Source of the DNA: Aerococcus viridans
GTDB lineage: Bacteria; Bacillota; Bacilli; Lactobacillales; Aerococcaceae
Direction: 5' to 3'
Assembly: GCF_002083135.2 (NCBI RefSeq)
Contig: NZ_NBTM02000001.1
Span: forward strand, 1,736,001-1,800,000
DNA length: 64,000 bases
In this document: one piece after another, positions 33,661-47,752 of the stretch
How positions within the stretch are numbered: the stretch's first letter is position 1
How the letters are laid out: the number at the start of each line of letters is the position of its first letter
Made by a program: the position numbers and the translations under genes
Notes under the pieces: model-generated
What the model was told of the DNA's origin: nothing
The model's input: only the letters and a program-made list of their open reading frames with translations
Databases searched by the model: none

Positions 33661-34848
33661 ATGGCATATTTAGATATTGCTAAAGAAATTTTTGATGAGG
33701 CAGTAAAGGTTCGTCGCCAATTACACAAAAACCCTGAAGTTGGTTTTGAATTACCAGAAACGACAAAACTTGTTAAATCAAAACTTGATGAGTTTGGAAT
33801 TGCATACGAAAACGTAGGTGATACATACGGTATTACAGGTACATTGGGTGATTCTGCTAAGGGTAAAACTTTATTGTTACGTGCAGACATGGATGCATTA
33901 GCGATTACTGAAAAATCTCAATCATCATGTACATCTAAAAATGAAAATGGACACTTATGTGGTCATGACATGCACACCACTATTTTACTAATGGTCCTAA
34001 AAATGTTGAAAGAAAACGAAGACCAATTAGAAGGTCAAATCAAGTTCTTATTCCAACCAGCAGAAGAAACTTTAAATGGTGGACGTGTAATGGTTGAAGA
34101 AGGTATTTTAGAAAACCCAACACCAGACGCTGGTATGGCTTTACATATGTGGCCAAACGGTGACAAAGTGGACGTTGAAATCCACCAAAAAGAAGCTTTA
34201 GCATCTGCTTTAAACTTCCGTATCACTATTAAAGGTGTAGGTGCTCATGGTGCAATGCCAAACAACGGTATCGACCCAGTCTTTGTGGCTAGCCAAATCA
34301 TTAATGGTGCAAACGGCATCTTAGCTCGTGAATTACCGTCTAACAAAGGTGCTTCTTTATCTATGGGTTACATCAATGCGCCAGGCGGTGCCATCAACGT
34401 GATCCCAGATACAGTAGTCTTAGAAGGGACATCTCGTTCATTATTCCCAGAATCAGCAGAACACGTTTCAAAACGTTTACCAGAAATTGTTGAACATATT
34501 GGTAAAGCATTCCGTGCTGAAACTGAATATGAAGTAATGGCTGACTGTCCGTCATTAACCAACTCTAAAGAAATGTCTGAACAAGTGATGGCCTCTGCTA
34601 AAGAAGCTTTAGGTGATAAATATGACGTGATGACCGTTCCACCATACTTAGCTTCAGAAGACTATGCACACATTGCTAGCAAATTGCCAGAATCAACATA
34701 CTTCTTCATTGGTTGTCCATTACCAGATGACAATGGTGAAGTATACCCTGTTCACCACCCATTAGTACAATTCAACGAAGAAGCATTAATTGTTGGATCT
34801 GCTACCTTAGCAACATCAGCAACTAATTGGTTACGTGACAACAAATAA
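33661..34848 (+). CDS. M20 family amidohydrolase (N-acyl-amino-acid/hippurate hydrolase type)
   Basis: Cytoplasmic metal-dependent amidohydrolase of the M20D family (395 aa). RRQLHKNPEVGFELPETT is the family N-terminus. Metal-site residues appear in LCGHDMHTT (Cys100, His102, His105) and PAEETLNGG (Glu135, Glu136), and a dimerisation domain (GVGAHGAMPNNGIDPV) follows. It removes acyl groups from amino acids or dipeptides; the exact substrate is unknown. Codon use is strongly biased, suggesting high expression. GGAGG precedes the ATG. It is monocistronic between two terminators. An upstream TATAAT (33541-33546) is a plausible -10. Confidence 0.9.
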   Translation: MAYLDIAKEIFDEAVKVRRQLHKNPEVGFELPETTKLVKSKLDEFGIAYENVGDTYGITGTLGDSAKGKTLLLRADMDALAITEKSQSSCTSKNENGHLCGHDMHTTILLMVLKMLKENEDQLEGQIKFLFQPAEETLNGGRVMVEEGILENPTPDAGMALHMWPNGDKVDVEIHQKEALASALNFRITIKGVGAHGAMPNNGIDPVFVASQIINGANGILARELPSNKGASLSMGYINAPGGAINVIPDTVVLEGTSRSLFPESAEHVSKRLPEIVEHIGKAFRAETEYEVMADCPSLTNSKEMSEQVMASAKEALGDKYDVMTVPPYLASEDYAHIASKLPESTYFFIGCPLPDDNGEVYPVHHPLVQFNEEALIVGSATLATSATNWLRDNK

Positions 34849-34873
34849 GCAAATCGATAAAATATACAAGTCG

Positions 34874-34915
34874 AAAGGGCAACGGACTATTACAAATGGT
34901 TTGGTGTCCTTTTTC
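34874..34915 (+). terminator. Terminator after the M20 amidohydrolase gene
   Basis: AAAGGGCAACGGAC pairs imperfectly with GGTTTGGTGTCCTTT, followed by TT, ahead of the heat-shock operon. Confidence 0.75.
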
Positions 34916-34985
34916 TATAAAATAATGTGTAAATTAGCCAATCTTACTAGCATCAAAAGCTTGAATTTCTAAAGGACGGTTTAAA

Positions 34986-35025
34986 TGTCAAAAAAAGTCA
35001 AAAAAAAGTTTGACTATTATTGACA
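34986..35025 (+). promoter_or_regulatory. Two CtsR-type operators upstream of hrcA
   Basis: 34986-35002 reads TGTCAAA-AAA-AGTCAAA, one mismatch from the CtsR tandem heptad (RGTCAAA-NAN-RGTCAAA). 35009-35025 is the same motif on the other strand (AGTCAAA and TGTCAAT heptads, 3-nt spacer) and covers the -35 hexamer. CtsR binding is inferred from the consensus. Confidence 0.7.
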
Positions 35026-35048
35026 AAAGAAATGATAAGTGCTATATT
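35020..35048 (+). promoter_or_regulatory. Heat-shock operon promoter
   Basis: TTGACA (35020-35025), 17-bp spacer, TATATT (35043-35048). The CIRCE element begins 10 bp downstream. Confidence 0.85.
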
Positions 35049-35057
35049 ATAAACATG

Positions 35058-35084
35058 TTAGCAGTCAGAGTTGTTAAGTGCTAA
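35058..35084 (+). promoter_or_regulatory. CIRCE operator (HrcA binding site)
   Basis: Half-sites TTAGCAGTC and AAGTGCTAA are separated by exactly 9 bp; the consensus is TTAGCACTC-N9-GAGTGCTAA. There are two mismatches. It covers the start of the transcript of the operon that encodes HrcA itself, so autoregulation is expected. Confidence 0.92.
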
Positions 35085-35096
35085 TGAGGTGATAAG

Positions 35097-36149
35097 ATGT
35101 TAACAAAACGACAAAGTTTAATTTTACAGGCGGTAATTGACCATTATTCAAAATACCAATTACCAGTCGGTTCGAAAACTTTATCTCAACATCAAGAAAT
35201 AAACGCAAGTTCAGCTACAATACGTAATGAATTAGCCAGACTTGAAGATTTATCATTGATTTCCAAAACCCATTCATCATCTGGACGAGTGCCAGCTGAG
35301 GCGGGTTATCGTTACTATATTAATCACATCATGCCATATTATGGTGGATTGATTGATTTAGAGCTTGAGGAAGAGGAAGATGCTTTACTTAGAGAGATAT
35401 TCCACGATCCTTATAACGATTTGAGTCAAGTGATTCGAAAAACGGCTGCGACTTTAGCCTCGCTTTCAGAAAGCGTCGTTATTTCGATGGGGCCAGATAT
35501 TGCAAGGCAACGATTGGCCAATTTTCAAGTATTGTCTTTAACCGATGACCAAGCAATGGTCATATTGGTGACTGATAAAGGTGTCATTCGCAATCAAATT
35601 GTGACATTCAACGAGGTGGTTACACCGGAATTGATTGAGGGTATTGCAGTGATTATGAATCAAGAACTTGTGGGCCTTGAGCTTGCAACGGTGATTGAAA
35701 GGCTGCAAACACACTATTTAAAAGATATTGAGAGAATGAACCGGTCTTATGAAGATAGTAATCATTTGATTCACCGGTTTATGAATCAATTCAATAGTGA
35801 TGGCATGAGGGTAAATGGTCAAAATTATTTGTTTTCTTCATTAGCTGATTCAGCTAATGGGACTAGCATTGCACAATTAAGTCGATTACTAGAAGACCAA
35901 TCAGTGATTACTTCACTGATTAATACCACAGACCAGGGTATCCAAGTGAGAGTGGGTAAAGAACTTAAAGATCCAACATTGGAAAATATGAGTTTAATGT
36001 CTACCAGCATGGGTACTGTACAATCGGGTAAGTTATTTACTCTTGCGGTGCTTGGTCCGGAAAGTATGTCTTACATTCGTATGGCGCAGCTTTTCCAAAG
36101 TATCTCAAAAGAAATGGCTAGATACCTGGACAATTATTATAAATCTTAG
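35097..36149 (+). CDS. hrcA: Heat-inducible transcription repressor HrcA
   Basis: Repressor of class I heat-shock genes that binds CIRCE. The N-terminal winged helix (residues 1-75) contains LPVGSKTLSQ, SSATIRNELARLEDLSLI and HSSSGRVPAEAGYRYYI; the GAF-like core follows. 350 aa is typical. GAGGTG precedes the ATG. First gene of hrcA-grpE-dnaK-dnaJ. Confidence 0.97.
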   Translation: MLTKRQSLILQAVIDHYSKYQLPVGSKTLSQHQEINASSATIRNELARLEDLSLISKTHSSSGRVPAEAGYRYYINHIMPYYGGLIDLELEEEEDALLREIFHDPYNDLSQVIRKTAATLASLSESVVISMGPDIARQRLANFQVLSLTDDQAMVILVTDKGVIRNQIVTFNEVVTPELIEGIAVIMNQELVGLELATVIERLQTHYLKDIERMNRSYEDSNHLIHRFMNQFNSDGMRVNGQNYLFSSLADSANGTSIAQLSRLLEDQSVITSLINTTDQGIQVRVGKELKDPTLENMSLMSTSMGTVQSGKLFTLAVLGPESMSYIRMAQLFQSISKEMARYLDNYYKS

Positions 36150-36161
36150 GAGGTCTATCAA

Positions 36162-36713
36162 TTGACAAAAATGGACGACAATCAACAAGATTTAAATGTT
36201 GATGAAGAAATCAATGAAACCGAGGTTCAAGACGAGCAAGTTGAAACAGTAACTGAAGAAGATAGCGAATTAGCCTCTCTTCAAGCTGAATTAGCGGCTA
36301 AAGATGACCAAATTATGCGTCTATCTGCTGAAATTCAAAACATGCACCGTCGTAACCAAACTGAACGTGAGTCAGCTTCAAAGTATCGGTCACAGAATTT
36401 AGCTAAGGGTATTTTACCAGCTATTGATAACTTGGAACGTGCTTTAGAATTAGCTAAAGATGATGAGTCATCTCAGCAATTAGTGAAGGGTATCGAAATG
36501 GTACACGCAAGCCTATTACAAGCTCTAGCAGAGGAAGGCGTTGAAGTGATTGACCCTAAAGGTGAACTCTTCGATCCAAACTTCCACCAATCTGTAAGTG
36601 CAGTACCGGCTGAAGATGGCCAGCAAGCTGAAGAAGTGGTGGAAGTTTTCCAAAAAGGGTATGTATTAAAAGATCGTGTACTAAGACCTGCGATGGTTTC
36701 TATTGCACAATAA
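36162..36713 (+). CDS. grpE: Nucleotide exchange factor GrpE
   Basis: Co-chaperone releasing ADP from DnaK. It has an acidic N-terminal tail, a long coiled coil (about 45-110) and a C-terminal beta domain with GELFDPNFHQSV and GYVLKDRVLRPAMV. 183 aa. The TTG at 36162 is chosen because AGGAGG (36148-36153) is 8 nt from it but 17 nt from the next ATG. It follows hrcA by 12 bp. Confidence 0.95.
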   Translation: MTKMDDNQQDLNVDEEINETEVQDEQVETVTEEDSELASLQAELAAKDDQIMRLSAEIQNMHRRNQTERESASKYRSQNLAKGILPAIDNLERALELAKDDESSQQLVKGIEMVHASLLQALAEEGVEVIDPKGELFDPNFHQSVSAVPAEDGQQAEEVVEVFQKGYVLKDRVLRPAMVSIAQ

Positions 36714-36767: not shown

Positions 36768-38618
<1,851 letters not shown>

Positions 38619-38708: not shown

Positions 38709-39887
38709 GTGGCTGAAAAAAGAGACTACTATGAAGTCCTTGGCGTGTCAAAGACCGCAAGTAAGGATGAAATAAAGAAAGCCTATCGAAAATTATCAAA
38801 AAAATATCATCCAGATATCAACAAAGAAGCGGATGCGGAAGACAAATTTAAAGAAATTTCTGACGCATACGAAGTCTTAAGTGATGAGCAAAAACGTGCA
38901 GCCTATGACCAATACGGTCACGCAGCTACTGACGGTGGCTTCGGTGGAGGCGGCGGATTTGGTGGCGGTAGTTACCAATCATACGGTGGCTCTGGCTTTG
39001 AAGACATCTTTGAGCAATTCTTTGGTGGCGGAGGCGGCGGCTTCAGCGGTTTCGGTGGTGGCTTTGGTGGCGGCGGCCGTACGGCTAACCCTAACGCACC
39101 GCAACAAGGTGATGACTTACAATACAATATGGACCTAGAATTTGAAGAAGCTATTTTCGGAACTGAAGAAACTATTTCTTACCGTCGTGAAGTAGACTGT
39201 ACAGTATGTGAAGGATCTGGTGCTGAACCAGGTACAGCAGTCCATACCTGTCCAACATGTTCTGGATCTGGTGTTGAAAAAGTTTACCAACAAACACCAT
39301 TAGGTCGTGTTGTTTCTCAATCTGTATGTCATGAATGTTCAGGTAAAGGGAAAGTATTCGACCAAGCTTGCCACCACTGCCACGGTGCTGGACGTGAAAC
39401 TGAAACACATAAAGTGAAAGTAAACGTACCAGCCGGTGTTGAAGATGGTCAAAGCATGCGTCTAAGCGGGCAAGGAAATGCAGGTAAAAATAATGGACCA
39501 GCAGGAAGCTTATATGTCGTTTTCCGTGTAAAACCTTCTGAAATCTTCGAGCGTGAAGGGGCAGAAATCCGCTATGTCTTACCAATTAATTTCGCCCAAG
39601 CGGCTTTAGGTGATGATATTGAGGTACCAACTGTTCACGGTAAAGTATCGATGAAAGTGCCAGCTGGTACGCAAACAGGTACGAAATTCCGTCTACGCGG
39701 TAAGGGTGCACCTAAATTAAATGGTAATTCAAACGGTGACCAAACAGTAACTGTTAAGGTGGTTACGCCTAAGAACCTGAATGAAGAACAAAAAGCTTCA
39801 TTGAGGGCCTTCGCTAAAGCTTCAAATGACGAAGTGAGTGAAGAAGATAGAGGGTTCCTCGATAAATTGAAAGACGCATTTTCTTAA
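38709..39887 (+). CDS. dnaJ: Chaperone DnaJ (Hsp40)
   Basis: Co-chaperone stimulating DnaK. The J domain has the HPD motif (KKYHPDINK, about residue 34). A long Gly/Phe region (about 77-125) follows, then four CxxCxGxG zinc motifs ([32 protein letters not shown]) and the C-terminal substrate domains. 392 aa. GTG start, with AAGGGGGAG upstream. Confidence 0.97.
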
Positions 39888-45727: not shown

Positions 45728-45744
45728 GTGAAAGCAAGTATACT

Positions 45745-45776
45745 TTGACCAAACCTGACTTTGTATGCGTTATAAT
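45745..45776 (+). promoter_or_regulatory. Possible ftsH promoter
   Basis: TTGACC (45745-45750) and TATAAT (45771-45776). The 20-bp spacing is longer than usual, so the -35 assignment is uncertain. Confidence 0.45.
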
Positions 45777-45865: not shown

Positions 45866-47752
45866 ATGAGCAAAAATAGAAAACAGAATAAAAATCGGAA
45901 GAAAGGGTTTAATTTTGGAAACTCACCTAATGGTGGTGGTTATTTCAACTTTATGAATGCCTTTTGGTGGATAATATTGGTAATCCTTGGTTTGAATTTA
46001 TTATTCCCAGCCATTACTGGGATGCAGGTAGAAGAAGTTCCTTATTCTTCATTTGTGAGCCAAGTAGATGCTGGCCAGGTAGAAAGTGTTGAAATTAATC
46101 AATATGATTTAACTTGGACCGCTGAAACGGACGGCGAAACGCAAGTATATACCACTGGTAAGGTGGATGATCCTGATTTAGTTAACCGTTTGGAATCGAA
46201 CAATGTGACTTACCAAACGGAAATCTATCAACCAACGTCACCATTTATCTCATTCTTACTGACCTTTATTTTACCGTTTGCTGTGATTTATTGGTTAATG
46301 CGTAAACTAATGCAGAAGATGACAGGTAGTTCTGATTCTAAGATTGACCTTTCAGGTGGTGGCTTTGGTGGCATGAACTTTGGCAAATCAGATGCCAAAA
46401 TTTATGTGAAATCAGATAATTCACGAAACTTTAAAGATGTGGCTGGCCAAGATGAAGCCAAAGAGTCTTTGGTTGAAGTGGTAGATTACTTGAAGGAACC
46501 GAAGAAATACCAAGAAATTGGTGCCCAAGCACCGCGTGGTGTCTTACTAGTAGGTCCTCCTGGGACAGGTAAAACTTTGATGGCCAAAGCCGTTGCTGGT
46601 GAAGCTGGTGTCCCATTCTTCTCTATCGCAGGTTCTGAATTTGTTGAGATGTTTGTTGGACGAGGGGCAGCTAAAGTGCGTGACCTCTTTAAACAAGCCA
46701 ACGATAAAGCGCCATGTATCGTATTCATTGATGAGATTGATACTATTGGTAAATCTCGTGACAATTCTTATTCAACCAATGACGAACGTGAGCAGACTTT
46801 AAACCAGTTGCTTACTGAAATGGATGGGTTCGAAGGCGACAAGGGTGTTATCATCCTAGCTGCAACTAACCGCCCTGAATCATTAGATAAAGCCTTGTTA
46901 CGTCCTGGCCGTTTTGACCGTCAAGTGTCTATGGAATTGCCTGACTTAAAAGGCCGTGAAGAAATTCTTCGTGTCCACGCTAAAGAATATAAGATGGGTC
47001 AAAATATCGATTACCGTTACATTGCCCGTGCGACTGCTGGGGCATCCGGAGCAGACCTTGCCAATATCATTAACGAAGCGGGGCTGCGTGCCGTTCGTAA
47101 CAAGCACAAGGAAATTAGTCAAATAGACTTGGATGAATCGGTAGATGTTGTCTTAGCTGGTCAAATCAAGAAGAACGATATCTTATCGCCAGAAGAACGT
47201 CGCGTCGTTTCTTACCACGAAATTGGTCACGCCCTTGTTGCGGCCCGACAATCTGGTTCAGCGCCAGTTGAGAAGATTACAATTATACCGCGTACGTCAG
47301 GTGCCCTTGGGTATACCATGCAGGTTGAAACTGGTGAGAAATCACTTTACACCAAACAAGAGTTGTACAATCAATTGATGACCCTTGCAGGTGGACGTGC
47401 TGCTGAAGAAGTGGTCTTTGGTGAAATCACTACCGGGGCTTCAAATGATATTGAAAAAATGACGAAAATTGCCCGTTCTATGGTCACTCAATACGGGATG
47501 TCGGATACTTTCGGCATGATGCAATTGGAAAGTCGTACTAATCGATACTTGTCTGACAATACACAGAGTCAGGTATCCGGTGGTACCGCTGAAAAAGCAG
47601 ATCAAGAAGTTATTGAATTGATTAAACGTGCCCATCAAGAAGCCGGCGAAATCTTGATGAATAACCGCGAAAAATTGGATGAGCTGTCTGAATACTTAAT
47701 TCAGGAAGAAACCATTACCGGTCAACAATTCATGCAAATTTTAAATAAATAA
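45866..47752 (+). CDS. ftsH: ATP-dependent zinc metalloprotease FtsH
   Basis: Membrane-anchored AAA+ protease for quality control of membrane and regulatory proteins. A basic N-terminus, TM1 (about 33-50), extracytoplasmic domain, TM2 (about 127-146), Walker A GPPGTGKT (230-237), Walker B FIDEID, the second region of homology, and the zinc motif HEIGH (451-455). 628 aa. The ATG at 45866 is chosen over one 54 nt upstream because TAGGAGTG precedes it at proper distance. The tilS-hpt genes that often precede ftsH in Firmicutes are absent here. Confidence 0.97.

Follow-up and report, generated by a model that had tools for sequence, protein, structure and literature searches.

Facing CtsR-type sites and a CIRCE at the hrcA-grpE-dnaK-dnaJ promoter of Aerococcus as candidate operators for dual repression

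The promoter of the hrcA-grpE-dnaK-dnaJ operon of Aerococcus carries sequences that resemble the operators of two repressors, CtsR and HrcA, raising the question of whether both act on this major chaperone operon, and of what a second CtsR-type site facing the first might contribute. The window, by which we mean the whole 64-kb stretch of DNA that was analysed, lies at bases 1736001-1800000 of an Aerococcus genome of 2.0 Mb in one contig, whose HrcA is closest to that of Aerococcus sp. UBA6277 (95% identical, the best among four relatives in one collection). The operon begins with hrcA (35097..36149, plus strand; TIGR00331 above cut-off), followed on the same strand by grpE (36162..36713), dnaK (36792..38618) and dnaJ (38709..39887), the start codons of grpE and dnaJ being uncertain.

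Two tandem heptads of the form RGTCAAA-N3-RGTCAAA lie ahead of hrcA in opposite orientations, as the earlier note had described them, and the second overlaps the promoter. The upstream one, on the plus strand at 34986..35002 (TGTCAAA-AAA-AGTCAAA), has a single mismatch to RGTCAAANANRGTCAAA, and its downstream heptad (34996-35002) stands 6 bp from the other, which is on the minus strand at 35009..35025 (TGTCAAT-AAT-AGTCAAA, two mismatches; TTTGACTATTATTGACA on the plus strand). This minus-strand box covers the -35 hexamer TTGACA (35020..35025) with its last bases, confirming the overlap reported in the same note; the -10 hexamer TATATT (35043..35048) follows at 17 nt and is of the extended type, giving a promoter with 11 of 12 consensus positions and 17-nt spacing. 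A promoter scan alone is not above chance in this respect, with two found and 1.4 in shuffles. Immediately beyond is a CIRCE (35058..35084, plus strand), TTAGCAGTC-N9-AAGTGCTAA, such that an element of the type TTAGCACTC-N9-GAGTGCTAA is present at a dnaK operon that includes hrcA. It has a 9-nt spacer and matches 16 of the 18 arm positions (0.01 occurrences are expected by chance at up to three mismatches); two departures in the arms make its former description as near-perfect too strong. A structured RNA leader was considered and rejected, as positions 34000-36000 match no Rfam family at E values of up to 1.

Counting mismatches alone provides a weak case for the CtsR-type boxes, as the window contains 14 matches at up to three mismatches versus 11.5 expected, and 23 of 100 shuffles gave at least 14. 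We also scored the window with a matrix derived from 40 distinct boxes (59 sites) that precede ctsR, clpP, clpB and groES in 15 Aerococcus genomes, from which the hrcA sites were excluded, and for which three promoters had been set aside in advance (those of two extra clpB paralogues of G011, and that of G006 clpP, where the stretch lay inside the gene). With this matrix, which is not independent of the consensus because the training box of each promoter was its best heptad-consensus match with at most three mismatches, the plus-strand and minus-strand boxes score 20.8 and 19.0 and rank first and second among all positions on both strands of the window. In ten simulated sequences of 64 kb there was one site in all at either score.

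The gene for the presumed second repressor, for which the earlier note had advised a search, is present. ctsR is found in this genome (PF05848, E 1.4e-36, at G000:C1:988661) and in all 15 Aerococcus genomes by a PF05848 search of which only the positives are used, as it missed its control, Bacillus subtilis, which carries ctsR. NCBIfam assigned the protein no family, and Pfam did. An open frame that we read by eye as clpC is directly 3′ of ctsR, and the product contains the glycine-rich motif RGGGGY, which we take to be the loop that serves as the heat sensor of CtsR. The recommended search for heptads upstream of the clp genes and groESL was likewise productive, with CtsR-type boxes at ctsR, clpP, clpB and groESL in this genome. 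Across the genus, a tandem heptad within two mismatches is present upstream of ctsR and of groES in 15 of 15 genomes, of the main clpB copy in 14 of 15, and of clpP in 13 of 15 (the unusable G006 clpP being counted as a miss). As read from the sequences, the position of the box varies: at ctsR it follows the -10, at clpP and usually at clpB it covers the -35, and at groESL it precedes a -35 of the TTGCAA type; in the clpP and clpB promoters of this genome the upstream heptad forms the -35, and its clpB has an inverted facing pair like that of hrcA, at 17 bp. A CIRCE is also seen by eye at groESL in all 15 printed Aerococcus sequences, and in this genome (L009, G000:C1:1025610) it accompanies a plus-strand CtsR-type box, a pairing that recurs genus-wide. 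Both types of operator, the arrangement that marks dual regulation, are therefore found at dnaK and at groESL.

The third-ranked CtsR-type box of the window (45744-45760, minus strand, score 16.6) ends 106 bp 5′ of a second ftsH (45866-47752). This paralogue is matched over most of its length in six of the 15 genus genomes, five of which have a box scoring 17.4-22.0 about 120 bp 5′ of it, while the sixth, G002, has a weaker one (12.7) on the opposite strand. For the other ftsH, the start of which is estimated, upstream scores reach at most 7.0, except for 13.8 in G009. An ftsH under CtsR has been described in L. plantarum, in the part of PMC3472708 consulted.

We consider it probable that CtsR and HrcA both repress hrcA-grpE-dnaK-dnaJ in Aerococcus, with the upstream facing site taking part. 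In such a system CtsR bound to the minus-strand tandem heptad would cover the -35 and block RNA polymerase, and HrcA would occupy the CIRCE that follows the -10. Heat would inactivate both repressors, freeing the chaperone operon at the same time as the clp genes. Facing the minus-strand box at 6 bp, the plus-strand site most likely accommodates a second CtsR molecule, which would tighten occupancy. What the sequences show is the sites themselves, their likeness to the other CtsR-type boxes of the genus, their conservation and a ctsR gene; the upstream site's role, like binding, repression and heat release, is inferred.

Comparison of the genus genomes shows which parts of this arrangement are kept. 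Scored without the 3-nt spacer, and in the sequence upstream of the best CIRCE, the minus-strand box reaches 16.3 in A. agrisoli and 12.7-19.4 in 15 of 15 Aerococcus genomes, which belong to a single genus and so are not independent observations. The plus-strand site is conserved only in part: GTCAAA occurs exactly 6 bp upstream of the minus-strand box in nine of 16 promoters (the 15 Aerococcus genomes and A. agrisoli), with either A or G as the first base of the heptad, six different spacer sequences, and representatives in both main clades formed by the seven Aerococcus genomes of the tree. Shuffling the letters 2000 times, a procedure that ignores the relatedness of the species, never gave more than two GTCAAA copies at any one distance. 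Among the remaining promoters, G009 has the motif at 4 bp, A. agrisoli at 5 and 16 bp, and G005 at 15 bp only, without the 6-bp copy; G003 and G004 have GATCAAA at 6 bp, and G011 and G013 have no GTCAAA near the minus-strand box at hrcA. A full plus-strand tandem (score 12 or more) is present in five of the 15 genomes: G000, G006, G012 and G014, with heptads at 6 and 16 bp, and G010. From these counts the arrangement at the core of the genus is, as judged by the sequences, a tandem with one heptad facing it, which some lineages have refined into the full inverted double. The conservation that the earlier note had made a touchstone thus holds for the minus-strand tandem throughout, and for its partner in part.

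The incomplete conservation bears on another explanation, that the minus-strand box is the sole CtsR operator and the plus-strand sequence an A-rich UP element, in which GTCAAA has no repressor role. The upstream stretch is indeed very A-rich, and besides the small number of genomes with a full upstream tandem (at least 12 in score) there are species without a single heptad. However, an UP element requires A/T and not GTC, and it would not account for GTCAAA standing at exactly 6 bp in nine of 16 promoters, in two clades and with differing spacers; moreover, the plus-strand site outscores the minus-strand box in the window, and a like pairing is found at this genome's clpB. We regard this explanation as unlikely, if by no means negligible.

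The CIRCE of the hrcA promoter is itself variable, with 14-17 of 18 matches in Aerococcus, and position 7 of its left arm is G instead of C (TTAGCAG) in A. agrisoli as well as in all 15 Aerococcus genomes. At groESL the same position, read by eye, is a G in seven and the consensus C in eight Aerococcus genomes. As the groESL CIRCE of S. thermophilus has a similar arm, TTAGCAGTT, in the portion of PMC3192767 seen, the Aerococcus arm is not unique. A more far-reaching proposal can be framed around this departure, namely that the HrcA regulon lies wholly inside the CtsR regulon, as it does in staphylococci, and that the hrcA box placed one heptad upstream of its usual register, the head-to-head pair at 6 bp and the CIRCE weakened in its left arm would together make CtsR the main repressor of dnaK; we find this version doubtful.

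Elsewhere in the family, 31 of 61 genomes have at least two CIRCE-like sites ahead of hrcA (for example, at L083, L084, L086, L098 and L111). These usually lie on either side of the promoter, and the upstream one is often a perfect 18/18; genomes of families f2-f5 also have two. The hrcA upstream region L105 (G047) retains an apparent half-site of an upstream CIRCE (GAGTGCTAA) next to a box of the CtsR type that covers the -35, and by its sequence this may be an intermediate state. The presence of two CIRCEs in these genomes, with CtsR boxes in the corresponding place in Aerococcus, suggested an operator swap in which CtsR boxes replaced the upstream CIRCE, which we have rejected, as its direction cannot be told. 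A tree of HrcA and DnaK places Aerococcus loosely (support 20), outside a 15-genus clade (support 100) to which most of the two-CIRCE genomes belong.

Boxes of the CtsR type at hrcA are less common elsewhere in the family. With the upstream stretch scanned whole, including between two CIRCEs, 11 of the 61 other family genomes have a box scoring 12 or more, a threshold chosen after the scores were known (the next lower family values being 11.3, 11.0 and 9.6), and 50 are below 12. Genus g13 accounts for seven of the 11, with a box in each of its seven genomes, and g3, g6, g9 and g14 contribute one genome apiece. Among 66 chosen genomes of other Bacilli, each reported by its two best sites only, 12 have an hrcA box: eight of eight in family f14 (taken to be Staphylococcaceae), which served as the positive control, together with G234, G319, G096 and G086. 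These comparisons make it highly improbable that the heptads are vestigial or coincidental and HrcA alone controls the operon, for although the -35 consensus TTGACA supplies part of one heptad, and in the part of PMC3842655 consulted an L. plantarum ctsR mutant shows no change in hrcA despite a predicted site, the other heptad, TTTGAC, lies outside the promoter and is kept in all 15 genomes and A. agrisoli, and of the 61 other family genomes, many of which have TTGACA, 50 score below 12.

The inverted double arrangement, which had been singled out as unusual, is present here but is not peculiar to this promoter. In addition to the clpB pair of the same genome, two genomes from other genera of the family have an inverted pair at hrcA, G019 (16.5 plus, 13.9 minus) and G041 (14.8 plus, 17.4 minus), with a gap of 16-17 bp and not 6; these are the only hrcA pairs seen beyond Aerococcus, the 66 other Bacilli being represented by their two best sites each. 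The pattern GTCAAA-N0-25-TTTGAC-N6-TGAC occurs in 71 of 398 Bacilli genomes, a part of which is chance, as a reversed control pattern matches in eight of 398 and an off-register one (four free bases between TTTGAC and TGAC) in 42 of 398. Of 50 inverted-pattern loci, 20 of them hand-chosen, 35 match clpP, a Clp ATPase, ctsR or dnaJ, suggesting that facing CtsR-type sites are a recurrent form, and 15 match none of the ten query proteins. At clpP, Clp ATPase, clpB and ctsR genes of Bacilli, tandem heptads face another heptad within 3-21 bp, as in Aerococcus; the difference is in the genes, which are clp, ctsR or dnaJ-type in these Bacilli, and hrcA in Aerococcus. In genus g70 of another family (L245-L248 and L268) a CtsR-type inverted pair is ahead of a dnaJ-like gene, which is followed by a ClpB/ClpC-like N-terminal match. 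We found no literature on facing or multiple CtsR sites by title or abstract.

Helical phasing of the inverted pairs across Bacilli was considered and rejected, and a spacing rule is not established. For 23 hits hand-picked beside clp, ctsR or dnaJ the p value is about 0.0002, but this set is biased, several staphylococcus-like gaps having been omitted; 39 entries with a strong tail, made distinct within genus by hand, give 0.20 at 10 bp and 0.28 at 10.5, and leaving out genera g38 and g56 gives 0.03-0.05.

Dual repression with participation of the facing site, the reading that we prefer, would likely extend two-repressor control of a major chaperone operon to Aerococcus, and the related promoters, in which the main box is faced by zero, one or two heptads, provide a natural series for gauging what a facing CtsR site does; beyond these two points the regulation is ordinary. 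A full-text literature search for Aerococcus and CtsR returned no match naming either in its title or abstract.

Among known systems, that of L. plantarum WCFS1 is alike in that a CtsR site and CIRCE are predicted at one Lactobacillales promoter, that of hrcA (PMC3842655, as far as seen); it differs from Aerococcus in having two CIRCEs, and in the lack of a ctsR effect on hrcA described in the same part of that paper. In O. oeni, CtsR alone is reported to control dnaK and groEL. The earlier note had named some streptococci among the bacteria with dual control, and for the dnaK promoter this fails: none of six genomes of family f3 (taken to be streptococci) has a CtsR-type box at the hrcA/dnaK promoter, and for S. 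thermophilus dnaK the consulted part of PMC3192767 mentions a CIRCE and no CtsR box. Its other example, the staphylococci, is well founded, as dual CtsR/HrcA control of dnaK and groESL is described there (PMC6305308 and PMC11298487, citing Chastanet et al. 2003, both seen in part), S. epidermidis having tandem CtsR and CIRCE operators at both loci (PMC11298487), and the f14 genomes agree with this in their hrcA boxes. The likeness to Aerococcus is that at the hrcA-dnaK operon a CtsR box covers the -35 region and a CIRCE comes after it, and that groESL has both kinds of site. The differences are that in f14 (n = 8), and also in g13, the upstream heptad forms the -35 (TTGACWTACTTTGACC in f14), as read from the sequences, whereas at Aerococcus hrcA it is the downstream heptad, which places the box 10 bp further upstream than in a promoter of the staphylococcal type; that many Aerococcus species carry an additional inverted site; and that the Aerococcus CIRCE departs from the consensus to the extent given above. 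The best-supported reading of these sequences is that two-repressor control follows a known scheme, to which Aerococcus would add a box in a shifted position and, in many species, a second site that faces it.
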